Virus record (IMG/VR): IMGVR_UViG_3300036851_000313
Coordinates: 1-61,539 of that record
DNA from: a virus
Direction: 5' to 3' (one strand)
DNA: 61,539 nt
The position numbers were made by a program, and so were the translations under genes. Positions 20,185 to 55,282 of the stretch are shown here, piece by piece. Positions within the stretch are counted from its first letter, which is position 1. Each line of letters begins with the position of its first letter. Under the pieces are notes generated by a model, which was given only the letters and a program-made list of their open reading frames with translations, was not told where the DNA came from and searched no databases.

Positions 20185-20187
20185 TCC

Positions 20188-27433: not shown

Positions 27434-27436
27434 CGC

Positions 27437-27856: not shown

Positions 27857-27870
27857 GAGGAGGAGGCGAC

Positions 27871-28661: not shown

Positions 28662-28730
28662 TCATCCGCCGCTCACGGCCGCCGACCTCGTCGCGCGGCC
28701 GTTCCCGTATGCCCCGACGAGGAGACTCGG

Positions 28731-29051: not shown

Positions 29052-29066
29052 CAGGAGCGAGCTGAA

Positions 29067-29450: not shown

Positions 29451-29453
29451 CCC

Positions 29454-29936: not shown

Positions 29937-29952
29937 TCCACACCCACGAGTA

Positions 29953-29986
29953 GCGGGCCCGGTCACCCTAGCCGGGCCGGGCCCGC
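29953..29986 (+). terminator. Hairpin after the tail tube gene
   Basis: GCGGGCCCGG (29953-29962) pairs with 29977-29986 across a 14-nt loop, with alternative GC-rich pairings. It probably attenuates transcription so that tube protein exceeds downstream tail proteins. Confidence 0.6.
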
Positions 29987-30024
29987 GCTTCATCTGTCGG
30001 CTAGGGCAACGGCTAGGAGACCCG

Positions 30025-30525: not shown

Positions 30526-30902
30526 AGGCGGCGGCCCGGTGGGGTGTCGCCCCGTCGCGCTGGCGAGGCCGCGAACCGCGCACCACGACCACCTACGAGT
30601 ACGACCCCGCTGGTCGGCTGGTCCGGGCCACGACGGCCCGCGAGGCGGAGTGGCTGGACGTCGACCGGGCCGAGACGGTCGCGTTCCTGCTCGAGGAACG
30701 GGGCCGCTGCCCCGGCTGCGGGCAGCCGCTGGACGAGTCCACGGCCGACGACGCGGAGGGCGCGTACACGGTGCCGGAGACGTGGTGCCACGCCTGCGCG
30801 GCGCACCGCCACGTCACGAAGGATCACGCAGGGGAGCCGGGCTACCTGTCGTGGGTCGAGCGGAAACCACGCGACGTCAACGCTCCGGCCAGCACTCCTT
30901 GA
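30025..30902 (+). CDS. Tail assembly chaperone frameshift product (GT-type)
   Basis: The -1 frame continues from the end of the G gene (LEAAARWGVAPSRWRG...) to a stop at 30900-30902 and has no usable start until deep inside, so translation must slip near 30505-30522 (codons TCG CCC GAG AAC before TAG). The extension has a zinc knuckle CPGCGQPL...CHACAAH. The exact slip site is not a textbook heptamer; CCCGAGA is my best candidate. Confidence 0.68.
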
Positions 30903-31074
30903 TCGCCTCGACGCCCACCTCGTCGACGGCGGTCAGGACGTCCTCGCTGGCGCGGAGATCCTGGCGGATCGACTCGCAGTTCTCCCGGAACTGGCGCTGC
31001 TCCCACCACTGATAGCCGCCGATGAGCCCACCCACGAGTACCAGCGCGGCGAGCACTACGACCAGTCGCCTCAT
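30877..31074 (-). CDS. Minus-strand membrane/exported 65-residue protein (moron)
   Basis: ATG 31074 preceded by GGGGGAGG on the minus strand. MRRLVVVLAALVLVGGLIGG is an N-terminal membrane anchor or signal; the rest is a helical domain with two Cys (ENCESIRQDL, EAIKECW). It is wedged between tail chaperone and tape measure against the operon. A lysogenic-conversion role (for example superinfection exclusion) is plausible. Confidence 0.65.
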   Translation of the reverse strand: MRRLVVVLAALVLVGGLIGGYQWWEQRQFRENCESIRQDLRASEDVLTAVDEVGVEAIKECWPER

Positions 31075-31126
31075 CCGCCTCCCCCTTCAGCGATTCACGG
31101 TAGCCCAGAAGGGAGCGTGACGACCC

Positions 31127-34100
31127 GTGGTTGACAGATCCGTCAAGGTCACGCTCCGCGCCGACGTGGCCCCGTTCACGGCCGGGTTGAAGGGCGCGCA
31201 GCGGCAGACCGAATCCTTCTACGGGTCGATCAGCAAGGGCGAGGCGAAGGCCCGCGCCGCCTGGCAGATGCAGGCGCAGGCCGAGAAGGAGATGGCCGCC
31301 GACTTCCAGCAGCGGATGGCGAAACGGCACGAGGCCATGACCAAGGCCGGGGTGGCGCTGACCGCGTTCGGTGTCGCCACCGTCGGCGGGCTCGGCCTGG
31401 CCGCCAAGGCCGCCATCGACTGGGAGTCCGCGTGGGCTGGGGTGACCAAGACCGTGGACGGCTCGGCCACGCAGATGGCTGCGCTGGAGTCGGGGCTGCG
31501 TGACCTGGCGAAGGAGCTTCCCGCATCCCACGACCAGATCGCCGCCGTGGCGGAGGCGGCCGGGCAGCTCGGCATCAAACGTGAAGCCATCCTCGGGTTC
31601 ACCCGCACGATGGTGGCTCTCGGCGAGACCACGAACCTGACCGCCGATGAGGCCGCCACGGCGATGGCCCGGATCGCAAACATCATGGGCACCCCGCAGG
31701 CCGAGATCGACCGGCTCGGCGCCGCCCTGGTCGCGTTGGGCAATGATGGCGCGTCCACGGAGCGGGAGATCGTGGAGATGGCGCTGCGCATCGCTGGCGC
31801 CGGGAGGACCATCGGGTTGACCGAGGCGGACGTGTTGGCGTTCGCGAACGCGCTGTCGTCGGTGGGCATCGAGGCGGAGGCCGGCGGAACCGCGATCTCC
31901 CGGGTGATGGTCGACATCGCCCAGTCGGTGCGGCAGGGCGGGGACAAGCTGGAGCTGTTCGCCCGGGTCGCCGGCATGTCGGCCACCCAGTTCCAGGCCG
32001 CGTTCCAGCGGGACGCCGCCGGGGCGATCGTGTCATTCGTCGAAGGTCTCGGCCGCATCCAGGCCTCCGGCGGGGACACCTTCGGCGTATTGGAGCAGCT
32101 GGAGCTCGGGGAGATCCGGGTCCGGGACGCGCTGCTGCGCACGTCGGGCGCCGGGGATCTGCTGCGCAAGTCGCTGGATCTGGGCGCGCGGGCGTGGAAG
32201 GACAACACCGCGCTCGTGGAGGAGGCCAACAAGCGGTACGCGACTACCGCGGCCAGGTTGGCTATCGCGCGGAACCAGCTCAACGACTTCGCCATCGACA
32301 TCGGGGAGACGTTCCTGCCGGCGGTGGGCGGGGCCGCGGACCGGATGGGGTCGTGGCTGCAGGTGCTGCAGGGCCTGCCCGGCCCGGTGAAGGAGACCGG
32401 CTCGGTGGTCGGTGCGCTCGCCGGGGCAGCCTCGCTGGCTGGCGGTGCGTTCTTCCTGGCCGCCCCGAAGGTGGCCGCGTTCAAGGCGTCGATCGCCGAT
32501 CTGGGGCCGAAGGGGCAGATGTTCGCCCGCGGCCTGTCCGGTGCCGCCGGGATCCTGGGCGGGCCGTGGGGGATCGCCATCGCGGGCGGCATCACCGCGC
32601 TCGGCCTGTTCATCGACGCGAAGGCGAAGGCGGCGCAGGAGGTCCGCGAGTACACCCGCGCCCTGCAGGCCGACTCCGGGGCGCTGGGCGTCAACACCCG
32701 CGCCCTGGTCGCGCACAAGCTGGAGCAGGAGGGGTCGCTGGAGGTCGCGCAGCGGCTCGGCGTCGACCTGGCTACGCTCACCGAGGCGGTGCTCGGCAAT
32801 CGCAGCGCCTACGAGCAGGTGCGCGGGCAGCTCGAGGCGTACGCCCGGGCCGCCGCCGACGCCCAGTACATCGACTCGGGGCGGATCAACGACGCGCAGA
32901 CCCTGATGGACATGATCAACGGCCAGTCGGGGGCGGTGCGCGGCGCCGCCGAGTCATACAAGCGGGAGGCCGCCGCCGCCGGACAGTCCGCCGACGCGGT
33001 CGACGGGAGCGCCGCATCGGCCGGCAACGCCGCCGCCGAGACGGGGAAGCTCGGCGCCGCCGCGGACGCGACCACAAGCGAGCTGAAGGACGAGAAGTCC
33101 GCCGCCGACCGGCTCAAGGAGTCCATCGACGCGCTCACCGGGGCGCACCGGGCCGCGTACGGCGCCGAGATCAACTTCGAGGAGGCGCTGGACGGGGTCA
33201 CCGCATCGGTGAAGGAGAACGGGCGGAGTCTCGACATCCGCACCGAGAAGGGCCGCGCGAACGCCCGGGCGATCCTCGGCGCCGCGGAGGCGGCCAGCGA
33301 GCACGCGCAGAAGGTCGCCGACGAGACCGGGTCGCTGGAGAAGGGCCGGATCAAGCTCGCCCAGCACCGCGAGCAGCTGATCAGGCAGATGGTGCAGCTC
33401 GGCTACACCCGGGAGGCCGCGCAGAAGCACATCGACACGCTGTTGCGGGTCCCGAAAAGGGTGAACACGGACGTCACCGCGGATACGCGTCCGGCGGCGC
33501 GGGCCATCGCCGGATTCGAGGCCAACGTGAACGCGATGCTGCGCCGCGTCCGCGGCCCGCACAAGGTGACGGTCAGCGTGTCCGGGAACTTCGTGCAGCG
33601 CGCCGGGGGGCGGATCTTCGAGGCCGAGGGTGGGCTGGTCGACTACTACGCCGACGGCGGAACGCGGGAGCGGCACGTCGCGCAGATCGCGCCCGCCGGG
33701 GCGATGCGGGTGTGGGCCGAACCGGAGACCGGCGGGGAGGCGTACATCCCGCTCGCCCAGTCAAAACGGGGCCGGTCCGAACAGATCCTCGCCGAAACTG
33801 CCGGCCGGTTCGGGATGCGGGTGGTGCCGATGGCCGACGGCGCGATCCTGATGCGTCTTCTCGGGCAGCAGTCCGGGGTGTCCGGCCAGGACCGGGCGCT
33901 ACGGGAACTGGCGCTGCGCGCGCAGAAGGACTCCACGGCTGCGCTTGCCGGCGGCTACCGCGGTGGCCGCGGTGTGGAGCAGTGGCGCGGCGCCGGACTG
34001 CAGGCGCTGGCCGCCGCTGGGGCGCCGTCGTCGTGGATCGGGTCGCTGTTGCGGCGGATGAACCAGGAGTCGGGCGGGAACCCGCGGGCGGTGAACCTGT

Positions 34101-34543
34101 GGGACATCAACGCGCAGCGCGGCTACCCGAGCGTCGGCCTGATGCAGGTCATCCGGCCCACGTTCCAGGCGTACGCCGGCCGGTATCGCAACCGCGGCCC
34201 GTTCATGTACGGCACGTCCATCGACCCGCTGGCGAACATCTACTCGTCGATCAAGTACGCGAACGCCCGCTACGGCAGTGCGCCGCGCGGCTGGAACCGG
34301 GCGGGCGGGTACGACTCCGGCGGCCTCGCCCGCGGCGCCGGGTACATCCCGAAGCTCACCCCGGCCCCGGAGCGGGTGCTGTCCCCGGTGCAGACCGCGG
34401 CGTTCGAACGGCTCGTCGACGTCATGGTCAAGGGTGGCGGTCAGCCGATCCAGTTCGTGAACGAGGGCGTCATCGGCTCCCAGATGGAGCTGCAGAACTG
34501 GCTGGCCAAGTCGCTGGATAACCTGCGGCACCGGGGACGCTGA
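31127..34543 (+). CDS. Tape measure protein with lytic transglycosylase domain
   Basis: 1138 aa. The TP901-like core near residues 80-330 (TAFGVATVGGLGLAAKAAIDW) is followed by hydrophobic helices around 425-500. A C-terminal SLT/lysozyme-like domain is near 955-1065, with catalytic Glu in NQESGGNP (about 978), GLMQVIRPTF and NIYSSIKYANARYG. Sets tail length (roughly 170 nm if 1.5 A per residue holds) and helps DNA cross peptidoglycan. Confidence 0.93.
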   Translation: MVDRSVKVTLRADVAPFTAGLKGAQRQTESFYGSISKGEAKARAAWQMQAQAEKEMAADFQQRMAKRHEAMTKAGVALTAFGVATVGGLGLAAKAAIDWESAWAGVTKTVDGSATQMAALESGLRDLAKELPASHDQIAAVAEAAGQLGIKREAILGFTRTMVALGETTNLTADEAATAMARIANIMGTPQAEIDRLGAALVALGNDGASTEREIVEMALRIAGAGRTIGLTEADVLAFANALSSVGIEAEAGGTAISRVMVDIAQSVRQGGDKLELFARVAGMSATQFQAAFQRDAAGAIVSFVEGLGRIQASGGDTFGVLEQLELGEIRVRDALLRTSGAGDLLRKSLDLGARAWKDNTALVEEANKRYATTAARLAIARNQLNDFAIDIGETFLPAVGGAADRMGSWLQVLQGLPGPVKETGSVVGALAGAASLAGGAFFLAAPKVAAFKASIADLGPKGQMFARGLSGAAGILGGPWGIAIAGGITALGLFIDAKAKAAQEVREYTRALQADSGALGVNTRALVAHKLEQEGSLEVAQRLGVDLATLTEAVLGNRSAYEQVRGQLEAYARAAADAQYIDSGRINDAQTLMDMINGQSGAVRGAAESYKREAAAAGQSADAVDGSAASAGNAAAETGKLGAAADATTSELKDEKSAADRLKESIDALTGAHRAAYGAEINFEEALDGVTASVKENGRSLDIRTEKGRANARAILGAAEAASEHAQKVADETGSLEKGRIKLAQHREQLIRQMVQLGYTREAAQKHIDTLLRVPKRVNTDVTADTRPAARAIAGFEANVNAMLRRVRGPHKVTVSVSGNFVQRAGGRIFEAEGGLVDYYADGGTRERHVAQIAPAGAMRVWAEPETGGEAYIPLAQSKRGRSEQILAETAGRFGMRVVPMADGAILMRLLGQQSGVSGQDRALRELALRAQKDSTAALAGGYRGGRGVEQWRGAGLQALAAAGAPSSWIGSLLRRMNQESGGNPRAVNLWDINAQRGYPSVGLMQVIRPTFQAYAGRYRNRGPFMYGTSIDPLANIYSSIKYANARYGSAPRGWNRAGGYDSGGLARGAGYIPKLTPAPERVLSPVQTAAFERLVDVMVKGGGQPIQFVNEGVIGSQMELQNWLAKSLDNLRHRGR

Positions 34544-36003
34544 TGGCCGCCATCACCCATGACCTGCGCGTCGACTGGAGCAACAACGGCTCCTTCACCG
34601 ACGCCGAGGAGAACGTCACCGGCCGGGTGTGTGCCCGACCCGGCGTCACCGTCCAGTTCGGCCGCGACCAGTACCGCGCCCTGTCCCCGGTCGCCGCCGG
34701 GGAGATGCGGTTCGAGCTCGACAACGCCTCCCGCGAGTACAGCCCCGAGAACAGCGGCTCCCCGATCGGCGCGAACCTGAAACCGGGCCGCCCGGTCCGC
34801 CACCAGATCACCCACGACGCGATCACGTACGGGGTGTTCCGCGGCCACCTCGACGACTTCAACATCAACCCCGACACGAACGTGAAACGGGCGTGGTTCA
34901 CCTGCCTCGACGGGCTCGCGAAGCTCGTCAAGCCGAAGGTGTCCACCCCGCTGCACGAGGGCATCCGCACCGGCGCGGCGATCGGGCACGTCCTCGACGC
35001 CGCCGGGTGGCCGTCCGGGTCGCGGGACCTCGACATCGGCGCGACGATCATCCGGCACTGGTGGGAGGACGGCACCGCCGCCTACGAGGCGCTGCAGAAG
35101 GTGCTCGCGTCCGAAGGTTCCCCGGCGGTCGCCTACGTGGACCCGGCCACCGGCAACTTCATGTTCCGGGACCGGCACCACCGGCTGACCCGCGCGGCGT
35201 CCACCACCAGCCAGGCGACGTGGCGCGGCTCCGGCGCCGAACCGGTCATGTCCCCGCCGTTCGTGTACGAGCACGGGTACCGGGACATCGTCAACGACAT
35301 CGCCTTCGAGGTGGACGAGCGCAACGCCGACGGTGTCCTGACGAACGTGTGGGAGACCGACGACGTGATCACCGTCGCCGCGTCGTCATCCGTCATCCGG
35401 CACGTGCAGGCGTCGGACCCGTTCAAGGGCGCGGTCGCCCCGGTGGCCGACACCGACTTCACGGTCCTGTCCGGCTCCGTGTCGTCGGTGACCCTGTCCC
35501 GCACCTCCGGCCAGTCCACGATCATCACCGTGAATGCTGGCGCGTCGGGTGCGACCATCGGGGGGCTGCGGCTGCGCGCCTTCTCCGCGCCCGTGGTCCG
35601 CACCTACAAGATCACCGCGTCGGACGCGGCGTCGATCGCCGATCACGGCTCGGCGGCCCTGCCATCGGGGCTCGAGCCGGTGTGGGCTGGCCGGCACGAC
35701 GCGCAGGCCCTGGCCGACCTGTACGTGCTGCAACGCGCGCAGCGGGTGCCGATCGTCCGTACCCGCATGACCGGCGGCAACGACACCCGCATCGTGCAAT
35801 GCCTCACCCGGAAGATCTCCGACCGGGTCACGCTGGTCGAGACCGAGTCGGGGCTGAACGACGACTTCTTCGTCGAGCGCATCGAGCTCGGCACCGACGG
35901 GGTCGAGCTGACCGTCGACTTCGGGTTGGAGAAGGTGCCGACGCAGCCCGCCGTGTTCATTCTCGGCACCAGTGTTCTGAACACGGGGGTGCTCGGCTAC
36001 TGA
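34543..36003 (+). CDS. Minor tail / distal tail protein
   Basis: 486 aa, TGATG junction with the tape measure. The N-terminal MRFELDNASREYSPENSG stretch and following GVFRGHLDDFNINPD match the actinophage minor tail family downstream of the tape measure. Likely part of the baseplate. Confidence 0.8.
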   Translation: MAAITHDLRVDWSNNGSFTDAEENVTGRVCARPGVTVQFGRDQYRALSPVAAGEMRFELDNASREYSPENSGSPIGANLKPGRPVRHQITHDAITYGVFRGHLDDFNINPDTNVKRAWFTCLDGLAKLVKPKVSTPLHEGIRTGAAIGHVLDAAGWPSGSRDLDIGATIIRHWWEDGTAAYEALQKVLASEGSPAVAYVDPATGNFMFRDRHHRLTRAASTTSQATWRGSGAEPVMSPPFVYEHGYRDIVNDIAFEVDERNADGVLTNVWETDDVITVAASSSVIRHVQASDPFKGAVAPVADTDFTVLSGSVSSVTLSRTSGQSTIITVNAGASGATIGGLRLRAFSAPVVRTYKITASDAASIADHGSAALPSGLEPVWAGRHDAQALADLYVLQRAQRVPIVRTRMTGGNDTRIVQCLTRKISDRVTLVETESGLNDDFFVERIELGTDGVELTVDFGLEKVPTQPAVFILGTSVLNTGVLGY

Positions 36004-38852: not shown

Positions 38853-39038
38853 GTGCCCGACCCCGACGACCCCACCGGCCTCGAGGCCGACGACAGCGAC
38901 GAGGCCACCCTCGAAGGCGACCTCGCCACGGTGGGCGACGACGAATACTTCGCCGCCCTGGAGGACATGCCGGCGCTGCTGGCCGAGGACGGCACCCAGC
39001 TCGACCCGGCGGAGGGGGTCCGCGATGAGCGCCGCTGA
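38853..39038 (+). CDS. Small acidic protein upstream of amidase
   Basis: 61 aa, GTG 38853 with GGAGGAGG. Very acidic (Asp/Glu about 35 percent). It overlaps the amidase start by 14 nt. Possibly a regulatory or chaperone peptide for lysis. Confidence 0.55.
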   Translation: MPDPDDPTGLEADDSDEATLEGDLATVGDDEYFAALEDMPALLAEDGTQLDPAEGVRDERR

Positions 39039-39489
39039 CGTCCGCCGGATGGAAGCGATCGTGGCCCGCATGAAACGGTTCGACGTGCGGATCCGCTACA
39101 TCGACGGCTGGCGCGACCGCGGCCGCCCCTACACCTTCACCCCGCGCGGCATCCTCGACCACCACGACGCCTCCTCCACCAACTCCGGCACCTGGGGGGC
39201 GCTCGGCATCATCGTCGCCGGCCGCACCGGCATCCCCGGCCCCCTCTCCCAGTTCCAGATCGCCCGCGGCGACGAGCCGCAGGTCGCCATCGTGGCCGCC
39301 GGGCGGGCCAACCACGCCGGCACCGGCGGTGGGCCCGGCAGGCTCCCGGCAGGCATCCCCAAGGACTCGGGCAACGCCTACCTGTTCGGCGCGGAGAAGG
39401 CCAACAACGGGGTTGGGGAGCCGTACAGCGCGGCGACCCTGTACGCGGCGAAGAGCCTGTTCGTGGCCGTTCTGGAGGTCGTGACGTGA
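39025..39489 (+). CDS. Endolysin amidase, N-terminal part
   Basis: 154 aa of an N-acetylmuramoyl-L-alanine amidase (amidase_2/PGRP fold): LDHHDASSTNSGTW carries the first zinc His (near 46-47), then FQIARGDEPQVAIVAAGRANHAGTGG. The reading frame stops before the last helix, and the missing GHKE/KIDP ligand segment is encoded at once in the next gene in the -1 frame. Either a split enzyme, programmed slip or frameshift mutation. Confidence 0.8.
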   Translation: MSAADVRRMEAIVARMKRFDVRIRYIDGWRDRGRPYTFTPRGILDHHDASSTNSGTWGALGIIVAGRTGIPGPLSQFQIARGDEPQVAIVAAGRANHAGTGGGPGRLPAGIPKDSGNAYLFGAEKANNGVGEPYSAATLYAAKSLFVAVLEVVT

Positions 39490-41359: not shown

Positions 41360-41398
41360 CCGCCCCGCTGTCCCTCCTCCGAGGGGACAGCGGGGCGG
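41360..41398. terminator. Strong bidirectional terminator between convergent operons
   Basis: A perfect 15-bp stem (41360-41374 with 41384-41398) with a 9-nt loop. It separates the rightward late operon from the leftward transfer block and can serve both strands. Confidence 0.88.
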
Positions 41399-41403: not shown

Positions 41404-41676
41404 TCATGCCCGGGGACGGTTCACGGCATCGAGCGCCCGCGCCGCGACGATCGCCGGGTCGGCCATCACTCGCGCCCGCGCCTCATCCCGGACATCGGCC
41501 GGTAGGCGGTCGAAGGTGTCCTGGTAGCAGGTCCGCATCATCCGGTCCCGAATGTCCTCCGGCATCGCCACGAACACCGTCGGGTGCATCGCTCCGGCCA
41601 TGTCGCGGAGCAGGATCGCCGCCATCAGCAGCGCATACGCGGCGTCCACCAGATCGTTGCGTTCGATGTCGGTCAC
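41404..41676 (-). CDS. Small helical hypothetical protein
   Basis: 90 aa from GTG 41676 in a GTGA overlap (ATG 41685 in frame too). Helical with a DIRDRMMRTCYQDTFDRLPA motif. Last gene of the minus-strand block. Function unknown. Confidence 0.6.
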   Translation of the reverse strand: MTDIERNDLVDAAYALLMAAILLRDMAGAMHPTVFVAMPEDIRDRMMRTCYQDTFDRLPADVRDEARARVMADPAIVAARALDAVNRPRA

Positions 41677-41957
41677 GGCTTCCATTCCTCGCGGAAGTTT
41701 GGGTGGTCGGCGTGCCTCGCGGCGATTGACCTCAGCAGGACCCGGCCGGGCCTCACCGAGGCCGCGAGCGTCACACCGGCCCGCCCCGCCGCATACCGCG
41801 CTTTCATCGCCTGCCACGCGAGCGTCCCCGCGACCCGCCTGCGGGCCTCCTGCGCGTCCGGCGCGAACTCCGCGCCGCACAGCGCGAGGATGCGGCGCTC
41901 ATCGGCGGTCTCCTCCTCCGCGAGGCGGTCCCGCAGGAACTCCACCAGCTCGTTCAC
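41673..41957 (-). CDS. DUF6221-like protein A
   Basis: 94 aa, GTG 41957. VNELVEFLRDRLAEEETADE at the N-terminus and ARHADHPNFREEWKP at the end match the DUF6221 pattern common in Streptomyces plasmids, AICEs and phages. The next gene is a paralogue. Function unknown. Confidence 0.75.
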   Translation of the reverse strand: MNELVEFLRDRLAEEETADERRILALCGAEFAPDAQEARRRVAGTLAWQAMKARYAAGRAGVTLAASVRPGRVLLRSIAARHADHPNFREEWKP

Positions 41958-42310
41958 GGCTTCCACTCCTCGTTGTAATCGGGGTGGTCCGCGTACGGCA
42001 GGGCGAGGTTGATGACCGCAATGTGAAGACCTGAGCGAACGCACTGGGTGGACCAAGCCATGTCGTTCTTACCGGACGCGAGGAGAGAGTTGATCTCGCC
42101 GTCGAGCGCAATATAGGCGTCCACGATCCGCCGCTTCGCCTCGACCTCGCGCAGCACGTGGGCGGGGTCGTGGGCGGACACGAATGCTAGTTCGGCTGAC
42201 TCGGAGCCCCAGGGATACGACGGGTAAGAATCCACCTCGTTGATGCATGCCCTCGCCAGCCGCTCGCGCTCGCCAAGCCGCGCGGTGAGGAACTCCACCA
42301 GACCGCTCAC
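41954..42310 (-). CDS. DUF6221-like protein B
   Basis: 118 aa, GTG 42310. GLVEFLTARLGERERLARAC start and LPYADHPDYNEEWKP end, paralogous to the adjacent gene. Both genes end with the same TGGAAGCCGTGA, showing a tandem duplication. A middle segment (SLLASGKNDMAW) has slightly lower GC. Confidence 0.75.
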   Translation of the reverse strand: MSGLVEFLTARLGERERLARACINEVDSYPSYPWGSESAELAFVSAHDPAHVLREVEAKRRIVDAYIALDGEINSLLASGKNDMAWSTQCVRSGLHIAVINLALPYADHPDYNEEWKP

Positions 42311-42480
42311 GGCACCTCCTCCGCCCACTGCTCCACCCACGTCGGCTTGTCCATGCCCCGGTCCGCCACATGCGGCCCGGCGTGGCCTAGCCGCAGATCG
42401 CAGCGGATGCCCAGCCGGTGCCGAGCCGGGCACCGGTCCCATGGCCACCGCGACCACCGCAGCCCAGACAGGTCGATCAC
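42307..42480 (-). CDS. Small Cys/His/Trp protein
   Basis: 57 aa from GTG 42480 (GTGA overlap). WSRWPWDRCPARHRLGIRCD and GHAGPHV give a possible zinc site. Function unknown. Confidence 0.55.
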   Translation of the reverse strand: MIDLSGLRWSRWPWDRCPARHRLGIRCDLRLGHAGPHVADRGMDKPTWVEQWAEEVP

Positions 42481-42713
42481 CGGACCAGCCTCTCGCGTGC
42501 CTCGTCCGCGCGGGCGTAGTGTTCGCAGGGCCACGATACGAACCGGCGGCGGTTGGAGCAGGCCCAGCAGACAGCCTCCCGTCCGTCGCCTGCGAGGTCG
42601 ACGGGCCGGTGCGCGTCCATGACCAAACCGTTGAGCCAGACCGCGATGCTGTCCGGGTGCATCCTGCGCAGCATCTCGCGCAGAAGTTCCCAGAACAGGT
42701 TCAACCGGGTCAC
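42477..42713 (-). CDS. Small hypothetical protein with Cys pair
   Basis: 78 aa, GTG 42713. Helical start (LFWELLREMLRRMHP) and CWACSNRRRFVSWPCEHY near the C-terminus, a probable zinc knuckle. GTGA overlaps at both ends. Confidence 0.58.
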   Translation of the reverse strand: MTRLNLFWELLREMLRRMHPDSIAVWLNGLVMDAHRPVDLAGDGREAVCWACSNRRRFVSWPCEHYARADEARERLVR

Positions 42714-43213
42714 CGGACCACCCTCCCACGCCCGTTATGCGCGACGTTGTGGATCGGCCGCTCCGCCCGGATCGCCGCCTCCTCGGCCGCATCCGCCGAC
42801 TCGCGGTCCGGGAACCACTCCGTGCGCCGCTGCACATCACCCTCCATGAACGCCCGCAGGTCCGCGTTGTGCTGCGCCTCCCGCCGCAACACGTCGTACG
42901 AGGTCCCGATATAGCCGGGCGGCCCGATCGGGGGGCAGGTGCAGGCCGGGTACCAGCGGTACAGCGCCCGCCGCCTGCTGCGGGATCTCAGCACCACCCG
43001 GCGGCGCTGACGCAGCCTCGCCGCCCGCCGCCGTGCGTGGACCCGCCGCAGCAGCCGCCACCACCGGCGCACACCCCGCCGCCCCGACCCGCTCGACACC
43101 AGCAGCGCCGCGGCTACCGCCCACGTAACCGGCTCCGTGAGCAGCGGGGCCAGCAGCGGCCACGCGGCGTCCAGCATCTCGACTAGCAGCGCCTCAAGCT
43201 CCCCGTCGGTCAC
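42710..43213 (-). CDS. Membrane-anchored GIY-YIG-like nuclease
   Basis: 167 aa from GTG 43213 (the frame opens further upstream inside the translocase). A hydrophobic N-terminal region (TWAVAAALLVSS), a very basic segment, then YIGTSYDVLRREAQHNADL...WFPDRESADAAEEAAIRAERPIHNVAHN, matching the core of GIY-YIG domains (YIG, R, E, N). The canonical first GIY strand is replaced by YRWYPACTCPPIGPPG. It could nick DNA for the adjoining translocase. Confidence 0.62.
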   Translation of the reverse strand: MTDGELEALLVEMLDAAWPLLAPLLTEPVTWAVAAALLVSSGSGRRGVRRWWRLLRRVHARRRAARLRQRRRVVLRSRSRRRALYRWYPACTCPPIGPPGYIGTSYDVLRREAQHNADLRAFMEGDVQRRTEWFPDRESADAAEEAAIRAERPIHNVAHNGRGRVVR

Positions 43214-44763
43214 GACGCCGCCCACCGGCCATGCCCCGTCTGCGCGGCCACCCCGTCGTCCCGCCACGACGCCAGGCGCCGCTCCACCGTCGCCCGCGAC
43301 AACCCCAACTCCTCGCCCGCGGCCACCAGGTCGGCGGTCTGCGCCCCGTCCTGGCCGGCTGAACGGAGCCGCTCCAGCAGCCGGTCATCCGCAGACGGCG
43401 ACGGCTCCACGACTGGGCCAGCGGTCGGCACGTCCGCGCCGCCGGGCCGGGCGTGCTCCGCGGCCGTCTCCCGGCGCTGCGCCTCCGACACCCAGAACGC
43501 CCGCGCCAGCCTCGGCCGCGACGACAACGCCGTCCGCGCGTGCAACAGCCCAGGCTTCGACGCGTCGAACCGCGACGTGTCCCACCCGTCATCCAGGGCA
43601 CCGTCGCCGAACACCACCACCGAGTGCGCCCGCTCCCGCACCCGCAGCCCGATCGTGTTCGCGAACTGCCCCCGCACCTGCGGATCCACCACCACCACCG
43701 TCGGATACTGCGTCGCCGCGTACACGAACACCCACGCCTCCCGGCCCATCAGAGCCAGCTGCGCCAACGCCTTCTTCGCCCGCCCCGAATCCTTCAACCG
43801 GGCCAGCTCGTCGATCACCACGATGACTGCCCGCTGCTCCGCGGTCGGCTTCCAGTCACCGGAGTCCATCGCCCGGTACCGGGCATCCATGTCCGCCACG
43901 GCCTTCTCCAGCATCACCACCGTGGACGACACCGAGTCGGCGAACTCGGCCGCCGCCGGCCGCCAGTCCCGCATCTGCGGGCTGCCCTTCAAATCGGCGA
44001 CCCGCACCTCCGCATCGGCGCAGTACAGCAGCGAGGCGATCAGCACATGCTCCACCCCAGTCTTGCCCGCATCAGTGGTACCGGCGATCATCGTGTGCCG
44101 GTGCAGCGGCACCAGCAGATCCCCGCCGTCCGCGTACACGCCCAGCGGCGCCGGATCCCGGACCGACCGAGCCTGCGGACCGGGCCACGACCTGATCCTC
44201 GCCAGCGGGTCCCGCAGCATCCGCCGCACGATCAGGAAACCGCCGGTACCGGTCCGCTGCACCGACACCGACCCGTCCCGGGCCCGCCACGTGTTCGTCA
44301 GCCGGTCCGCCAACTCGTCCAGGTTCCGCCCGGTCTTCCCCGGATACAGGGTGACCTTGACCGCCCACCCGTTGCGGTCCGCGCCGACCACCTTCGCGGT
44401 CGACCGCTCCAGCTCGGGGACGTACCGGGCGGTGCCGGTGTCCCAGTTCTGCGCCACCTCGCGGGCGCGCTGCCACGACTTGGCGGCCTCCTGCCGCGGC
44501 ACCACCGTGGCCTCGTACCAGCCGGTGACCGCCCGCCACCGGGCCGCACCCGGTACCGCCGGTACCGTCCACTGCCCGGACCAGCGGTCCCGGGCGCCGC
44601 GAACCACGGCCACGGCGGCACGACGGTGCCACCGCCACACCGCCCACCCGCCGCCGGTCCGCTCGCCCCGGTTCAGGAACACCACTACCGCGGCCAGGAC
44701 GACGCCGTACCAGCCGACCGCGATGAGCAGCCCGTACCACAGGCCCGCCGCGAAATCGGCCAA
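43210..44763 (-). CDS. FtsK/SpoIIIE-type DNA translocase (TraB/TraSA-like transfer protein)
   Basis: 517 aa, TTG 44763. One N-terminal TM helix (GWYGVVLAAVVVFL, residues 17-31), a helical linker, then the motor: Walker A GTTDAGKT 228-235, KGSPQM, Walker B VIVVIDEL 313-320, ATQYP 350-354. The C-terminal 50 residues (LVAAGEELGLSRATVERRLA) form a winged helix like FtsK-gamma. Streptomyces TraB/TraSA with this architecture pump double-stranded plasmid DNA between hyphae; no relaxase is seen, as expected for that mode. Shorter than chromosomal FtsK and lacking its four TMs. Confidence 0.9.
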   Translation of the reverse strand: MADFAAGLWYGLLIAVGWYGVVLAAVVVFLNRGERTGGGWAVWRWHRRAAVAVVRGARDRWSGQWTVPAVPGAARWRAVTGWYEATVVPRQEAAKSWQRAREVAQNWDTGTARYVPELERSTAKVVGADRNGWAVKVTLYPGKTGRNLDELADRLTNTWRARDGSVSVQRTGTGGFLIVRRMLRDPLARIRSWPGPQARSVRDPAPLGVYADGGDLLVPLHRHTMIAGTTDAGKTGVEHVLIASLLYCADAEVRVADLKGSPQMRDWRPAAAEFADSVSSTVVMLEKAVADMDARYRAMDSGDWKPTAEQRAVIVVIDELARLKDSGRAKKALAQLALMGREAWVFVYAATQYPTVVVVDPQVRGQFANTIGLRVRERAHSVVVFGDGALDDGWDTSRFDASKPGLLHARTALSSRPRLARAFWVSEAQRRETAAEHARPGGADVPTAGPVVEPSPSADDRLLERLRSAGQDGAQTADLVAAGEELGLSRATVERRLASWRDDGVAAQTGHGRWAAS

Positions 44764-44779
44764 CGCTCATTCCCCCCCG

Positions 44780-45070
44780 TCAGGAGCCGGGCTGCCAGCC
44801 CGCCGGGGCGTGCCCGGCCGGCACCCCCCACGCCTCCCACTGCTCGGACACCTCGGTGAAGCTGATCCCGCAGCCGCCGCAACCACTGTCCAGGGACGCG
44901 GTCATGTGCATGCACACCGGGTCACCGCTGCCGTTCATGCGCCCACTCCTTTGCTCGGCCACGAACGTGTCGACGTCTTTCTTGTTGCCGCTCTCATCAA
45001 CACCGCCGCGGTAGCCCTCGACTTCGCGAAGCTGCCGCAGTCGTTCGAAGCGCGGATCGCCATCGAACAT
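44780..45070 (-). CDS. Small Cys-rich protein of transfer block
   Basis: 96 aa from ATG 45070 (overlapping the previous stop), or 52 aa from ATG 44938 with AAAGGAG. The C-terminal half has CGGCGISFTEVSEQWEAW. Position in AICE-like clusters suggests an accessory of transfer; unknown function. Confidence 0.58.
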   Translation of the reverse strand: MFDGDPRFERLRQLREVEGYRGGVDESGNKKDVDTFVAEQRSGRMNGSGDPVCMHMTASLDSGCGGCGISFTEVSEQWEAWGVPAGHAPAGWQPGS

Positions 45071-45273
45071 CAGCGGATGCCGAACGAGGCCAGGAACGCC
45101 GCCGACATCGTGTCAGCCGACGCCACCACACCCTGCCCCAACGGGATCTGCGCCAGCAGCAAGCCCCACCCGCCGAGCAGGATCAACTCCCACGTCTTCG
45201 TCTTCTTCAGCTTCCAGGACACGAAGATCCCGGCGGACAGCGCCACCAGGACCACGGTCAGCGCGACAGACAT
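45070..45273 (-). CDS. Two-TM membrane protein of transfer block
   Basis: 67 aa, ATG 45273 with AAGGGGTG. Two helices (ALTVVLVALSAGIFVSW and ELILLGGWGLLLAQIPL). Small membrane proteins next to TraB/Spd genes are normal in actinobacterial plasmids; it may help pore formation or spread. Confidence 0.68.
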   Translation of the reverse strand: MSVALTVVLVALSAGIFVSWKLKKTKTWELILLGGWGLLLAQIPLGQGVVASADTMSAAFLASFGIR

Positions 45274-45346
45274 GCGATCACCCCTTCAGTGACTCGCCGT
45301 GGCGGTGAAACCATCAAGATCGTGCGGCTCGCGCGCGCGCGTATGG

Positions 45347-45568
45347 CTACCTGTCTGAGGGATTGAGGGAACTGAGGGAACTCACGCACCGTTGACCCCT
45401 CTCGGCCTGCCGCCGCATCCACCTGAGCCGCATGTCGAGCAGGATGTCCCGCGAGCGCGGGCGCGACGGCTCCGTCAGCGTCAGGTAGTAGTCGATGATC
45501 CGCAGGGCGGTCTCGGGGTCGGTGCGTGGAGTGACCCCGATGGCGATCTCGGCCGTGTTCCTGGTCAT
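45347..45568 (-). CDS. Small charged hypothetical protein
   Basis: 73 aa, ATG 45568 in a 4-nt ATGA overlap with the DUF2637-like gene. Helical (DPETALRIIDYYLTLTEPSR). Function unknown. Confidence 0.58.
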   Translation of the reverse strand: MTRNTAEIAIGVTPRTDPETALRIIDYYLTLTEPSRPRSRDILLDMRLRWMRRQAERGQRCVSSLSSLNPSDR

Positions 45569-46392
45569 GGCGTGCTCCCTCCGTGTCCGTTACTTCCAGT
45601 CGCCTCGAGCTGGCGGCGTAGCTGCTGCGCGGTGGTCTTGCTGATCTGCAACTCCCGCGCCCACGTGGCGAGCGACTCGCCCTCGAGCCCGCGGGCCCGG
45701 ATCTCGGCGAGCCGTTCGGTGTCGCTGCGGGCTCGCCCGTTCGGCGCAACCCGCTTGGCCGGCCGCGTTCGTTTGGCAGGCTGGGGGCGGGTGCCGGCGG
45801 CGACCGGCGCCAACGCGGCGGACCCAACCCCCCCGGGGCCGCCCACCCCGCCGCCGGCACCCGCAGACGCCGAGTTCGTCGCGAGTTTGTGTTTAGGCTC
45901 CACTGATTTGTATTTAGGCTCCACAAACCCGGCGCGGCGGATCATGGACAGTAGCGTCTCCACCGACCACACGAACGCCACCGCCGGCCACGCCGCCACC
46001 ACCCTGGCCAGCACGTTCGGTTCGGCAGCCGCCACGTTCGCGCCCAGCGTGGCCACCGCCCCCAGCCCGAGCAGGCACCACGCCAACCGCGACGCCGGAC
46101 GGCCCGCCCGGGAGTCAGCCAGCAACCCCATCGACCCGGCCAGCACCGCACCGTCGACCGACAGGGGCAGCAGTACCGCCGACAGCGCCGACTCGCCGAC
46201 CCGTACCGCCACCTCGTGCGCGTGCTGGTACGACACCACCGCGGCGACCGCGGCCACCGTCAGGACACCGGCGACGGCGAGGCGGTGGGCGGTCCGGTCG
46301 GTATCGGCGTACCGGCCAGGGTCGGCCGGGGCGGGCGGCGGAACCGCATCGGTGAATCCGCCCGTACTCGCCGGCCGGCCCTGGGGTTCCAT
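45565..46392 (-). CDS. DUF2637/SpdB-like membrane protein with C-terminal HTH
   Basis: 275 aa from ATG 46392 preceded by GAGGAGGTG. Four hydrophobic helices (about 45-160; LSAVLLPLSVDGAVLAGSMG is typical of DUF2637), a Gly/Pro linker and a C-terminal helix-turn-helix (LATWARELQISKTTAQQL). DUF2637 proteins accompany FtsK-type Tra genes in AICEs and relate to SpdB2-type spread proteins. Expressed leftward from the GntR-regulated promoter region. Confidence 0.83.
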   Translation of the reverse strand: MEPQGRPASTGGFTDAVPPPAPADPGRYADTDRTAHRLAVAGVLTVAAVAAVVSYQHAHEVAVRVGESALSAVLLPLSVDGAVLAGSMGLLADSRAGRPASRLAWCLLGLGAVATLGANVAAAEPNVLARVVAAWPAVAFVWSVETLLSMIRRAGFVEPKYKSVEPKHKLATNSASAGAGGGVGGPGGVGSAALAPVAAGTRPQPAKRTRPAKRVAPNGRARSDTERLAEIRARGLEGESLATWARELQISKTTAQQLRRQLEATGSNGHGGSTP

Positions 46393-46479
46393 CCGCCGCA
46401 CCTCCTCGTGTGCGATCCTGCGCGGTACTTCACCATACGCCGATACCGCAGTACCGCAACCACGGGTACCGTCATACGG
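46393..46479. promoter_or_regulatory. Divergent promoter/operator region of transfer block
   Basis: Between DUF2637-like and gntR genes lie GCGGTAC (46422-46428) and its inverted copy GTACCGC (46451-46457), the tandem ATACCGCA GTACCGCA (46443-46458), and GGTACCGTCATACGG next to the GTG. These are fitting operator half-sites for the GntR protein, which would repress both directions, as KorSA does for its targets in pSAM2. Confidence 0.65.
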
Positions 46480-47238
46480 GTGAAGGACGACCCGCCCCGC
46501 GGCCACGGATACCGGCAGATCGCCGCCGACCTGCGCGCCGACATCATCGGCGGCAAATACCGGCCCGGCGACGAAATCCCCTCCTACCGGGAACTCGTCA
46601 AGACCTACGGCGTCGCCGACCTAACCGCCCGCCGCGCCACCGACGTCCTGAAAACCGAGGGCCTCGTCCACGCCGACCGGCAACGCCTCGTCGTCCGCGA
46701 CACTCACCCCCCCGTCACCATTTGGATGACCCATACCGACTCCGCCGGCCGCCGCCACGGCGCCTCCACCGACGCGTTCGTCACCGACCTGCGCGACCAG
46801 GGCCGCGAACCCTCCCAGACCATCGACGTGGCCATCGTCGCCGCCGACCACCTGATCGCCGACCGGCTCGAGCTCGACCCCGGAACCACCGTCGCCGCCC
46901 GCCGCCGCGTCCGGCACGCCGACGGGCAGCCCCTGGACGTCAACGACTCCTACTACCCGTACGAGCTGGTGCAGGGCACCGAGGTGCTCACCCCCGGCGA
47001 CGTGGGTCGCGGCATCGGCAACGTACTCCGCGAACTCGGCCACGAGCAGGTCCGCTTCGTCGACGAGATCACCACCCGCACCGCCGCCGACGACGAGCGC
47101 CGCCGCCTCGACGTGCCCGCCGGCACCCCCGTCATCGAACACGTCCGCACCGGGTATACCGCGGCCCGGCCCATCCGGGTCACGATCACGGTCGTGCCCG
47201 GGGACCGGGTGCGGCTGCTGTACGAGGTCGATGCGTGA
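46480..47238 (+). CDS. GntR-family regulator with UTRA domain (KorSA-like)
   Basis: 252 aa, GTG 46480, apparently leaderless. N-terminal winged helix (YRQIAADLRADIIGGKYRPG, then ELVKTYGVADLTARRATDVL) and a C-terminal UTRA ligand-binding domain (GRGIGNVLRELGHEQVRFVD, RTAADDERRRLDVPAGTPVI). It is divergent from the transfer genes and likely their repressor. AICE KorSA proteins belong to the same family. Confidence 0.88.
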   Translation: MKDDPPRGHGYRQIAADLRADIIGGKYRPGDEIPSYRELVKTYGVADLTARRATDVLKTEGLVHADRQRLVVRDTHPPVTIWMTHTDSAGRRHGASTDAFVTDLRDQGREPSQTIDVAIVAADHLIADRLELDPGTTVAARRRVRHADGQPLDVNDSYYPYELVQGTEVLTPGDVGRGIGNVLRELGHEQVRFVDEITTRTAADDERRRLDVPAGTPVIEHVRTGYTAARPIRVTITVVPGDRVRLLYEVDA

Positions 47239-47537
47239 TGATGATGGATCACCCCTACTGGCAGGTGCCGCACGAGCCATGCCCCACGTGTGGCCGCACC
47301 TACGGCATCCCCGTAGACGTCCCGGGCAGGTGCGGGGTGTGCCTGACGGGGCTGAGCCTCGACGGCCGCCCGGTCCACCCCGTCCAGCGCGGCGGGCGCT
47401 GGGTGTCGCCGATCACCGGGGCGGAGTGCGCTCAGCTGCCCGATGGGACATGGACGATCCTGATCGCCTGGCCGGGTTGGTCGCGCGAGGATCAGGTCGC
47501 CGATTGCGCCGCTGCTCGGGCGCGAGGTGTGTGGTGA
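47238..47537 (+). CDS. Zinc-ribbon hypothetical protein
   Basis: 99 aa, TGATG junction with gntR. CPTCGRTYG...CGVCLTGL form a ribbon; the C-terminal half is Trp-rich (WTILIAWPGWSREDQVAD). Common small protein in actinobacterial mobile elements; unknown function. Confidence 0.62.
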   Translation: MMMDHPYWQVPHEPCPTCGRTYGIPVDVPGRCGVCLTGLSLDGRPVHPVQRGGRWVSPITGAECAQLPDGTWTILIAWPGWSREDQVADCAAARARGVW

Positions 47538-48061
47538 TCATCCGCCGGGCCGCAGCAGACGACCTGCCTGCCGTCACCGCACTGATCGGCGAAGCCGCCG
47601 CCTGGCTGGCCGGCCGCGGCGTCGACCAGTGGCGCACCCCACCCGGCCCGGACCGCATCGAGGTCAGCATCAAGGCCGGCGACGTGTGGATCCTCCGCCA
47701 CGCCGACACCCCCGCCGCCACCGTCACCCTGGACGACTACGGCGACCCCGAATTCTGGGAACCCCACGCCGCCGGCGACGCCCTCTTCATGCACCGCCTG
47801 GCCGTCGCCCGCACCCACACCGGCCGCGGCATCGGCGCCGCCCTCGTCGAATGGTGCGCCGAACAAGCGTGGCAGCGCGGCAAATGGTGGCTGCGCTGGG
47901 ACGCCTGGAAAACCAACCCCGGCCTACTCGCCTACTACCGCCGGCTCGGCGCCGAACACGTCCGCACCGTCGACCTCGCCCACCGCTCCTCCGGTGCGCT
48001 CTTCCAAGTCCCCGCCAGGCCGATGAGCGTCACCGCCCGCGCACTCATCCGCGAGGCGTGA
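47534..48061 (+). CDS. GNAT-family N-acetyltransferase
   Basis: 175 aa, GTG 47534 (GTGA overlap). IIRRAAADDLPAVTALIGEA opening and the acetyl-CoA loop LAVARTHTGRGIGAALVEWC (R/Q-x2-G-x-G/A) followed by LRWDAWKTNPGLLAYYRRLGAEHV are classic GNAT. Substrate unknown. Co-transcribed with the GntR gene; overlaps the convergent HNH-like gene by 17 nt. Confidence 0.88.
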   Translation: MIIRRAAADDLPAVTALIGEAAAWLAGRGVDQWRTPPGPDRIEVSIKAGDVWILRHADTPAATVTLDDYGDPEFWEPHAAGDALFMHRLAVARTHTGRGIGAALVEWCAEQAWQRGKWWLRWDAWKTNPGLLAYYRRLGAEHVRTVDLAHRSSGALFQVPARPMSVTARALIREA

Positions 48062-48658: not shown

Positions 48659-50017
48659 GTGACGACGACCCAGAACGCAGCCATCTACGTGCGGATCAGC
48701 GACGACCGAGCGGGTGCCGGGCTCGGCGTCGCCCGGCAGGAGAAAGACTGCCGCGAGCTAGCGAAACGCCTCCGCTGGCACGTCACCGACGTCTACATCG
48801 ATAACGACGTCTCCGCCTACACCGGCAAACCCCGCCCCGAGTACGACCGGCTCCTCGAGGAGATCCGCGACGGCACCGTCACCCGCGTATTGGTCTGGCA
48901 CACCGATCGGCTGCACCGCAACAACCGCGAGCTCGAGGACGTCATCGACGCCGCCGAGCTGCACGGCACCGTCATCCACGGCTACAAGGCCGGCCCGCTG
49001 GACCTGTCCAACGCCTCCGGTCGGATGACCGCCCGGATCCACTGCGCCGTCGCCCGGGGCGAATCCGAACACAAGGCCGAACGGCAGAAGCGCAAGCACC
49101 TAGAGATCGCGCAGAAGGGCCGTCCCAACGGCGGGCTGCGGCCCTTCGGGTGGGACGAGGACAGGATCACCCTCCGCCCGACCGAGCACGCCATCATCCG
49201 CGAGGCCGCCCGCCGACTCCTCGCCGGCGAGTCGCTGCGAAGCGTCGCCGCAGACCTGAACGCCCGGGGCGTGGCGACCGTGACCGGCAAGCCGTGGTCC
49301 CCAACCGTGCTCCGCGCCATGCTCGCCCGCCCCCGCATCGCCGGGCTCCGCGAACACAACGGCCAGATCGTCGGCAAGGCGACGTGGCAGCCCGCGCTGC
49401 CCAAGACGACCTGGCAGGAACTCCGCGACTTCTTCGCCGACCCGGAACGCCATGTCGGCGCCAACACCCGCCGGTGGCTGCTCACCGGCATCGCCCAATG
49501 CCCCGCCGGGCACCGGCTCACCACCCGAATGGGCAACCGCAACCGGCCCGAGACGTCCCGCACCTCCTACGCCTGCCCGACCTGCCGCATCTACCGGGCA
49601 ACCGAACCGCTGGACGCGTACGTCACAGAGGCCGTGCTGCATCTCCTGCGACGGCTCACCATCGAGCCGACGCCGACCATCGATGACCGCCTGGCCGCGG
49701 AGATCGAGAGCGTGCAGACCCGGCTCGAGGAAGCGGACGACCTGTTCGCCAGCCTCACCATCAACAAGGAGCAGTACACCCGCATCAGCCGCAAACTGCG
49801 CGGCCGACTAGCGGAACTCGATCGGCGCGCCCTTCCGCCGCGACGACGCCGCCTCGTCAAGGGGCTCGCCAAGCCGGACAACCGGGCCGCGTGGGACGCG
49901 CTACCGCTGGACCGGAGACGCCGGGTCGTGGCCGAGCTGATGGACGTGATCGTGCACCCGGCCGGGGTCGGGCGACGGTCGTTCCGCCCAGAGACGGTGG
50001 AACTGCGCCCGCGCTAG
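48659..50017 (+). CDS. Large serine recombinase (integrase)
   Basis: 452 aa from GTG 48659. Catalytic domain: YVRIS with nucleophile Ser14, ARQEKDC, VLVWHTDRLHRNNREL, DLSNASGRMTARI. Recombinase domain GGLRPFGWDEDR through SPTVLRAMLARPRIAGLREH, zinc ribbon CPAGHRLTTRM...CPTCRIY and a coiled-coil plus C-terminal basic domain. Integrates the circle at attB. Start chosen at the leaderless GTG; the frame opens 36 nt earlier. Its directionality factor is probably 54167..55282. Confidence 0.93.
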   Translation: MTTTQNAAIYVRISDDRAGAGLGVARQEKDCRELAKRLRWHVTDVYIDNDVSAYTGKPRPEYDRLLEEIRDGTVTRVLVWHTDRLHRNNRELEDVIDAAELHGTVIHGYKAGPLDLSNASGRMTARIHCAVARGESEHKAERQKRKHLEIAQKGRPNGGLRPFGWDEDRITLRPTEHAIIREAARRLLAGESLRSVAADLNARGVATVTGKPWSPTVLRAMLARPRIAGLREHNGQIVGKATWQPALPKTTWQELRDFFADPERHVGANTRRWLLTGIAQCPAGHRLTTRMGNRNRPETSRTSYACPTCRIYRATEPLDAYVTEAVLHLLRRLTIEPTPTIDDRLAAEIESVQTRLEEADDLFASLTINKEQYTRISRKLRGRLAELDRRALPPRRRRLVKGLAKPDNRAAWDALPLDRRRRVVAELMDVIVHPAGVGRRSFRPETVELRPR

Positions 50018-54166: not shown

Positions 54167-55282
54167 ATGGCTGTCATCGACCTGCAACGCCGGATGCGCC
54201 AGCTCGGCGAGATCCGCATCGGGCACGTGGTGCCCACCTCCAACGGCAAGACCCGGCCGGAGAAGCTCGACCGGTTCCGGTTCACCAGCCCGTCCCAGGC
54301 CATCCTCGGCGACGTCGCGAAGGCGTACGGCGGCCAGGTGAAGGAGTGGGATCCGGCCAACGGCGGACCCCGCGAGTGGGAGGTGTACACAGACAGCCAC
54401 CGGCTGCCGGTCATCATCCCGCCGCTCGCCGTGACGCAATGGTACGAGCAGTACGCCGGGTCGAAATGCGTCAGGCGGTGCGACGGGCGCATCGAGCAGA
54501 AGTCCGACAAGCCGTGCCTGTGCGACCCGGAGCGCCGGAAGTGTTCGCTCACCACGCGGCTGAACGTGATGCTCCGCGACGTCCCGCCGATCGGCCACTG
54601 GCTGCTCACCTCCCGCGGCTACTACGCGGCGGTCGAGCTGCCGCCGGTCGCCGAGCTGCTCGCCAAGGGCGGCGGGCACGTCCCCGGCTGGCTGTCCGTC
54701 GAGGAGCGCCGCATCGTGCGGGAGAAGCCGGACGGCGGCACCGAGACCGTGCGGTTCATGGTGCCCACTTTGGACATCGATCTGGCACCGGCGCAGATCC
54801 TGTCCGGCGGTGTCGAGGCGGCGGCGCTGGGCGGCGGGGACCGGAAGGCACTTGAGCCGGGCGCCGGTCCGCGTGACTGGCAGGCGGAGATCGGGGGCGC
54901 GTCGTCGCGGGATGACCTGCTGCGGATCCGGCAGGAGGCCGCGAAGGCGGGCGTGCCGAACGGGGAGGAGTTCGATTCCTGGCTCGTCACTCGGATGGCC
55001 GAGATCAAGCAGCAGTCCGATCCGCCGCCGGCCGGGAATCTCGGCGCGCAGGCGGACCCGGAGGCGGACCGGATCGGCGTGTGGCAGCAGATCCTGGCCG
55101 CCGCCCCGCCCGGCTGGGGGCCGGCCGACTTGGAACGCGACTTCGCCGAACGCAACGGCGGCCTCGTGCCCGCCACCGCCGAACCCGCAGAACTGCAGGG
55201 CTACCTCGAGCAGCTCCGCGAGGGCGCGATCGCCGCCGAGACAGTCGAGGGCGAACTCGTTGACGAGAAGGTGCCGTTTTGA
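54167..55282 (+). CDS. Recombination directionality factor, phiC31 gp3-like
   Basis: 371 aa, ATG 54167. The opening VIDLQRRMRQLGEIRIGHVV, SNGKTRPEKLDRFRFTSPS, TQWYEQYAGSKCVRRCDG and LTTRLNVMLRDVPPIGHWLL match the gp3-like family of actinobacterial serine-integrase directionality factors, with zinc cysteines around 102-125. It would bind the integrase and switch it from integration to excision. Located in the early operon, so it is made on induction. Confidence 0.82.
   Translation: MAVIDLQRRMRQLGEIRIGHVVPTSNGKTRPEKLDRFRFTSPSQAILGDVAKAYGGQVKEWDPANGGPREWEVYTDSHRLPVIIPPLAVTQWYEQYAGSKCVRRCDGRIEQKSDKPCLCDPERRKCSLTTRLNVMLRDVPPIGHWLLTSRGYYAAVELPPVAELLAKGGGHVPGWLSVEERRIVREKPDGGTETVRFMVPTLDIDLAPAQILSGGVEAAALGGGDRKALEPGAGPRDWQAEIGGASSRDDLLRIRQEAAKAGVPNGEEFDSWLVTRMAEIKQQSDPPPAGNLGAQADPEADRIGVWQQILAAAPPGWGPADLERDFAERNGGLVPATAEPAELQGYLEQLREGAIAAETVEGELVDEKVPF

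Follow-up and report, generated by a model that had tools for sequence, protein, structure and literature searches.

A putative TraB-type DNA-transfer cassette maintained in the genome of a temperate, probably actinomycete phage

The IMG/VR virus record IMGVR_UViG_3300036851_000313, analysed here over its whole length of 61,539 nucleotides (the window), carries between its late genes and its integrase gene a compact set of genes of the tra/spd/kor type known from Streptomyces plasmids. A 127-bp exact direct repeat at the two ends of the record makes the genome a circle of 61.4 kb, as a preliminary description of the same DNA had stated. The cassette proper occupies about 41404-47238 and lies on the strand opposite to the late genes. 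Read from 5′ to 3′, its minus-strand operon encodes a DUF2637 membrane protein (45565..46392), a 73-aa protein (45347..45568), a 67-aa protein with a transmembrane (TM) segment (45070..45273), a 96-aa protein (44780..45070), an FtsK-family translocase (43210..44763), a protein joining a membrane segment to a GIY-YIG nuclease domain (42710..43225), four small proteins (42477-42713, 42307-42480, 41954-42310 and 41673-41957) and a last protein of 90 aa (41404..41676). The gene of a GntR/UTRA regulator (46480..47238, plus strand) is divergent from this operon. At the other end a perfect, terminator-like 15-bp inverted repeat (41360..41398) separates the convergent late and tra-like operons, and three tandem ACTAGAA-like units stand just ahead of it (41332-41357). 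The cassette had initially been delimited as 41404-48061, a range that contains it and is too wide: the GNAT gene at 47531-48061 was considered as a member and excluded, as was the HNH-like gene at 48045-48581.

The translocase is a protein of 517 aa in which FtsK_SpoIIIE (PF01580, 9.2e-8) is the only Pfam family above its cut-off; it also matches PHROG_1358 (2e-25). It has a single N-terminal TM segment (residues 12-30), a Walker A motif GTTDAGKT (228-235), a Walker B motif VIVVIDE, an ATQ motif and a C-terminal winged-helix-like tail (about residues 455-515) that aligns with the tails of plasmid TraB proteins, for example those of p7 and NBC_00138. Pfam did not find FtsK_alpha, FtsK_gamma or FtsK_4TM in it, domains that are all present in a chromosomal FtsK of Sphaerisporangium taken as control and likewise missing from the Tra proteins of pIJ101, pMR2 and p7. 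Judged by its domains, the architecture is that of TraB and not of chromosomal FtsK. A single-sequence structure prediction of the protein was unusable (pLDDT 40).

The neighbouring genes strengthen the resemblance. The first gene of the operon, for which the ATG at 46392 is a likelier start than an upstream GTG, specifies a DUF2637 domain (PF10935, 4.3e-16) followed by an HTH-like tail, and its family also includes the tra-adjacent DUF2637 genes of pMR2, p7 and AICE-like elements (AICE, actinomycete integrative and conjugative element). The SpdB-like membrane protein named in the preliminary description is in this way borne out, as are the small membrane protein (the 67-aa product) and the regulator in KorSA-like position, which matches PF00392 (2.3e-14) and PF07702 (2e-23). 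A reading of the DUF2637 protein as an excisionase or recombination directionality factor (RDF), invited by the label of PHROG_733, was ruled out: a Gp3-like RDF is encoded elsewhere in the genome, and the SpdB-type DUF2637 protein of p7 itself matches PHROG_733 (3e-23). On DUF2637 proteins this 'excisionase' label is misleading. The membrane-anchored GIY-YIG protein (PF01541, 0.0076; PHROG_16880, 2e-8), overlooked at first, is encoded by a gene that overlaps the translocase gene at the latter's 3′ end. For the other operon genes the searches returned nothing: the 73-aa protein has no PHROG match, the 96-aa protein no family match, and the four small genes no PADLOC match among those tested. 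No relaxase or type IV secretion system (T4SS) family was found among the window proteins scanned, a scan that did not take in every gene.

Relatives of the translocase were found by whole-genome searches; single-protein pattern scans of viral and genome collections gave no confirmed relative. With tblastn the best matches are phage Gilgamesh and Streptomyces plasmids of 130 kb (29-33% identity), followed by small transfer plasmids including pIJ101. Because they carry a Gilgamesh-like TerL (77-96% identical), the 130-kb plasmids can be identified by sequence as Gilgamesh-type phage-plasmids, among them NZ_CP108441, NZ_CP070374, NZ_CP107821, NZ_CP122459 and CP108533 (TerL 77-94% in these five), which figure as 'non-mobilizable'; in NZ_CP108441 a type I-E cse2 gene lies in the vicinity of the FtsK gene. 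A class-wide scan of 297 genomes returned tra genes of mobile elements as its best matches (2e-39 downward), and 45 of 347 Streptosporangiales genomes contain a translocase match at E<=1e-30, many of these spanning the whole protein to its tail. The neighbourhoods inspected are of two types. The first are classical AICEs (tra-RepSA-Xis-Int, with GntR); the second, here called group A, are AICE-like and encode a membrane protein of 62-64 aa, a protein of about 110 aa, Tra, an Xis-like protein and an integrase, with DUF2637 in the same operon in two elements (L267 and L271). Aligned with a profile of 13 group A proteins, the 67-aa protein of the window gives an hhalign E of 9e-5 and a probability of 59%, which is suggestive of a counterpart to the small membrane protein encoded upstream of tra in these elements.

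In the best tree of the translocase, which leaves out three wrong-frame rows (L147, L148 and L153), the window protein pairs with that of G001, a related IMG/VR genome of 61.4 kb (support 87), and the two are joined by Gilgamesh and the 130-kb phage-plasmids (92). The wider clade around them (96) also holds pIJ101 Tra, p7-type TraB and the group A elements. Chromosomal FtsK proteins form a separate clade (100), and so do the RepSA-type AICEs (98). In this tree the translocase falls neither inside chromosomal FtsK nor in a strictly lytic phage clade, and homology of the cassette to those of AICE-like elements and TraB plasmids holds up in sequence comparison. The earlier name 'TraB/TraSA-like' is supported in its first half, the protein being TraB-type (one TM segment, a tail, no alpha, gamma or 4TM domain); in the best tree it lies outside the pSAM2/pMR2-type RepSA clade. 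We favour a mobile-element tra protein of a phage branch, short of proof.

Comparison with G001 shows how the locus behaves in a phage lineage. The two genomes share a well-conserved backbone (TerL 93%, major capsid protein (MCP) 78%, portal 73% identical), and G001 has at the same locus, next to the same flanking genes, the order GntR / DUF2637 - 67 aa - FtsK - GIY-YIG - 90 aa, with a similar inverted repeat at the equivalent place. Its GIY-YIG homologue matches PF01541 more clearly (4e-7). Against this backbone and the 90-aa gene (79%), the inner genes are strongly divergent: GntR is 33%, FtsK 34% and the 67-aa protein 39% identical. Divergent inner genes at a fixed locus look like allele exchange, an interpretation favoured because the DUF2637 proteins of the two phages group separately, that of G001 with the group A operons L267/L271 (99) and that of the window with the Streptosporangiales pair L269/L272 (93). 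The genes of this pair, the nearest to that of the window, lie 8-20 kb from tra and not clearly in a tra operon. A third phage genome, G024, has a divergent GntR gene, DUF2637 and an FtsK-like gene. Two Streptosporangiales prophages with a related TerL, G624 and G489, both encode an FtsK-like protein of 730-750 aa beside polytopic membrane proteins, beyond the late genes and on the opposite strand; in both (L289-L291 and L292-L294, respectively) a gene for an HU-like DNA-binding protein closely follows. Several smaller relatives are without the cassette. Since its gene order recurs in the independent genome G001, chance is a poor explanation, and the tra/spd/kor-type set is best described, from these comparisons, as a maintained phage cassette, neither an AICE nor an accident.

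That the carrier is a phage follows from the rest of the genome. Head, tail and lysis genes are transcribed rightward from 9.4 to 40 kb; the virion genes (9427..36003, plus strand) include TerL (PHROG_38, 1e-104), portal (6e-125), head morphogenesis, MCP/protease (1e-50), tape measure (1e-150) and their neighbours, and an endolysin gene (39025..39489, plus strand; PHROG_880, 3e-21) completes the siphovirus set claimed at the outset. Pfam matches also confirm the two replication and integration genes then proposed, a Prim-Pol/DUF3987 protein (1603..4362, plus strand; PF09250, 1.9e-10; PF13148, 4.4e-30) and a large serine integrase (48659..50017, plus strand; PF00239 Resolvase, 5e-26; PF07508 Recombinase, 2e-12; PHROG_95, 5e-93). 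Prim-Pol is also a phage gene and thus weakly informative as a marker of AICE replication. A further gene, missed before and far from that of the integrase, encodes a phiC31 Gp3-like RDF (54167..55282, plus strand; PF18897, 1.5e-36), a family that phiC31 gp3 itself matches. Because it combines a large serine integrase with a Gp3-like RDF, the phage is predicted to be temperate and to integrate and excise in the style of phiC31. With TerL, portal, MCP, tape measure, endolysin, integrase, RDF and a repressor-like gene, it has the gene complement of a temperate siphovirus.

The host is likely a high-GC actinomycete of the Streptosporangiales, since TerL relatives (E<=1e-100) occur mostly in this order, in eight of 347 Streptosporangiales genomes versus three others in 395 class-wide genomes. 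Many Streptosporangiales are mycelial. Among named phage records the closest TerL is that of 'Microcystis phage MinS1' (MZ923504.1, 62.8%), beside actinobacterial phages; the cyanobacterial host stated for MinS1 may deserve checking. Three other genes of the window stand out: a well conserved phage protein of the DUF5131 family (58099-58986; PF07505, 7e-88), an HNH_3 endonuclease gene (40070-40735) with three imperfect direct repeats of 117 nt (39 aa) that repeat a Cys/His-containing motif, and a membrane-anchored protein with collagen-like GPP repeats (38077-38835), whose counterpart in G001 is 64% identical.

Candidate sites of action in cis were sought around the translocase and regulator genes. 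Directly 3′ of its translocase stop codon G001 has a gap of 120 bp in which a 9-mer within ATGCGTCGCAT occurs six times, with at most one mismatch (20767-20859); among about 1500 random windows taken from this genome, none was as rich. We regard the cluster as a candidate clt-like site. The clt of plasmid pWTY27 spans 16 bp of traA together with the 159 bp next to them, and TraA binds the four 7-bp direct repeats that it contains (PMC3583192); the G001 cluster has the same position, directly 3′ of the translocase gene. In the window, where the nuclease gene runs over the translocase stop codon, the sole candidate nearby is a weaker one, four copies of GACGGGG around that codon (43201..43350, minus strand). 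Repeats beside tra are not a general signal, because only two of 34 other loci (L206 and L211) looked enriched in them on the 3′ side (1.6-4%). GTCGCA repeats in G024 were ruled out as clt-like, lying in a low-complexity reading frame. Soon after a group A tra gene, the locus L207 has a tandem repeat array (10651-11070, partly N-masked) with GTGCAC-rich repeats between. The divergent promoter gap of the window (46393..46479) holds GGTAC/GTACC half-sites, and G001 has four copies of CCGGTACC in and beside the equivalent gap (18157-18339); both are candidate GntR operators.

From these elements a mechanism can be outlined. The GntR/UTRA repressor would hold the divergent operon down. On derepression a hexameric TraB-type motor would assemble at the membrane with the DUF2637 and small membrane proteins, its C-terminal winged helix would bind the circular phage genome at a cis site near the translocase gene, and double-stranded phage DNA would be pumped through septa or points of hyphal contact. 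Once excised, the genome might then spread virion-free within and between mycelia and reintegrate, possibly to the benefit of the phage. That a GntR-controlled TraB-type motor with Spd-type helpers moves the circular phage genome in this manner is the mechanism with the most support here and, in our judgement, an evenly balanced proposition. The wider picture is more tentative: an actinomycete temperate phage lineage that would hold a TraB-type, relaxase-free double-stranded DNA (dsDNA) conjugation cassette as a core accessory locus, swap its alleles with AICE-like elements and spread by virions as well as by hyphal transfer. It would be a phage-conjugative element occurring in nature, and one whose clt can be recognised. 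We consider this picture possible, and would sooner expect some part of it to fail than the whole to hold.

Several findings count against the proposed mechanism. The translocase is only about 30-34% identical to any relative, and because of the long branches an approximately unbiased (AU) test rejects no alternative placement, whether with chromosomal FtsK (p 0.24), RepSA AICEs (0.22) or group A (0.22). The translocase of G001 is devoid of the winged-helix tail. DUF2637 by itself is not diagnostic of a transfer cassette, because such proteins also occur in phages without FtsK (Samy; phiC31 gp25-like), and a GIY-YIG nuclease is not standard in tra cassettes. The host is deduced from relatives of TerL. 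The GACGGGG repeats make no convincing clt, 2.2% of random windows being as rich; this weak signal is not disqualifying, because no clt has been described to date even for pSAM2 (PMC9513070).

Among the other explanations, the one that survives best keeps the motor and shortens its range. The translocase and the Spd-like proteins would move or clear phage DNA across the septa of a single mycelium, vegetative cross-walls and sporulation septa alike, making every compartment and spore lysogenic, with no DNA passing to other individuals. The cassette has SpdB-like and small membrane proteins, a class of proteins that has been associated with the spread of AICEs inside a mycelium (PMC9513070); an integrating prophage would gain from conjugation between strains only as a bonus, and prophages of mycelial Streptosporangiales retain an FtsK gene. 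Yet host FtsK already transports an integrated prophage at septa, and the nearest homologues belong to mobile elements, in which tra genes act in transfer between mycelia. We therefore regard this explanation as unlikely, while taking it seriously.

A role in superinfection exclusion or defence, in which a membrane FtsK/HerA-like ATPase and the membrane GIY-YIG nuclease would destroy or block the incoming DNA of competitors, is to us decidedly improbable. It draws on the direct coupling of nuclease and ATPase genes in both the window and G001, on inner genes at 33-34% identity versus 93% for TerL at a fixed locus, a pattern of specificity cassettes, and on a weak PADLOC match to mad8 (5.7e-10). 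PADLOC finds nothing further of MADS or of any known defence system, however, the nuclease was not seen in G024, the prophages, the phage-plasmids or the AICE-like elements, and DUF2637 with GntR is a better match for tra/spd/kor. Still less probable is that an AICE recombined into the phage in the past and that the cassette is what is left of it, in decay and now functionless. The homology to AICE-like elements and the lack of RepSA or a second integrase would fit, but all frames are open, Walker A and B are intact, G001 keeps the gene order at 34% translocase identity, and further phages and prophages also have the cassette. Recruitment of FtsK to resolve dimers of the phage DNA or to segregate or package it, the alternative offered in the preliminary description, is the least plausible of all: FtsK-like genes are widespread in actinophages, but this translocase has no FtsK_gamma domain, the phage has its own TerL and integrates with a serine integrase and RDF, and the cassette runs opposite to the late genes under its own regulator.

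Should the cassette work as a transfer module, the virus would have two independent routes from host to host; one of them would need neither receptors nor an extracellular stage and could bring host DNA along. Relaxase-free dsDNA conjugation is a speciality of actinomycetes, and a phage owning it would link transduction and conjugation. In Streptomyces, phage-mediated transduction is said to have been described only rarely (PMC9513070). The ATGCGTCGCAT cluster of G001 is a defined DNA sequence on which binding and transfer could be tested.

Set beside known systems, the cassette comes close to the Streptomyces tra/spd/kor modules (pIJ101 Tra-SpdA-SpdB-KorA, the TraB plasmids, pMR2). Like the window, these have a single FtsK-family translocase with an N-terminal TM segment and, in several, a winged-helix-like tail, together with Spd-type or DUF2637 membrane proteins and a GntR regulator, and no T4SS was seen in them. 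The window differs in having DUF2637 upstream of the translocase and GIY-YIG after it, in a complete phage as carrier and in an identity of about 30% or less. AICEs of the pSAM2/pMR2 type and group A similarly unite an integrase, a Prim-Pol-type Rep and an FtsK-type Tra on one integrating element and share with the window GntR, DUF2637 and a membrane protein of 62-67 aa. The window is unlike them in its full virion, lysis and packaging set, its size of about 61 kb and a translocase that the best tree places outside the RepSA-AICE clade. Because of that virion set we describe it as a phage carrying a transfer-type cassette and not as an AICE; of the original idea of an AICE-type module on a phage genome, the cassette with its TraB-type Tra stands, and so do the integrase and Prim-Pol genes elsewhere in the genome. 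The screen of Ghinet et al. defines AICEs by Int + Rep + Tra (PMC3218068) and would flag this phage as one; screening of this kind will call such prophages AICEs.

Chromosomal FtsK shares the motor superfamily and differs in its alpha, gamma and 4TM domains and in its separate clade, even though the AU test would allow the window protein to join it. The literature search found no description of a tra/spd/kor cassette in a phage, which is not proof of absence. Gilgamesh-type phages and the 130-kb phage-plasmids are, like the window, virion-forming or phage-derived and have the nearest known translocases; unlike it, they are extrachromosomal, have other FtsK neighbours and show no DUF2637 annotated beside FtsK. 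Plasmid-phage pZL12 (Zhong et al. 2010), whose title as cited in PMC3583192 and PMC4487206 gives 'transfer' and 'plasmid/lytic phage cycle', likewise combines phage genes with a 'Tra3-like' annotation. It is an unrelated 90-kb ParAB plasmid-phage, and no TraB/DUF2637/GntR cassette was seen in the 50 kb of it that were read. With pZL12 and the Gilgamesh-type phage-plasmids as precedents, spread both by virions and by conjugation, if confirmed for the phage of the window, would not be the first case of its kind.

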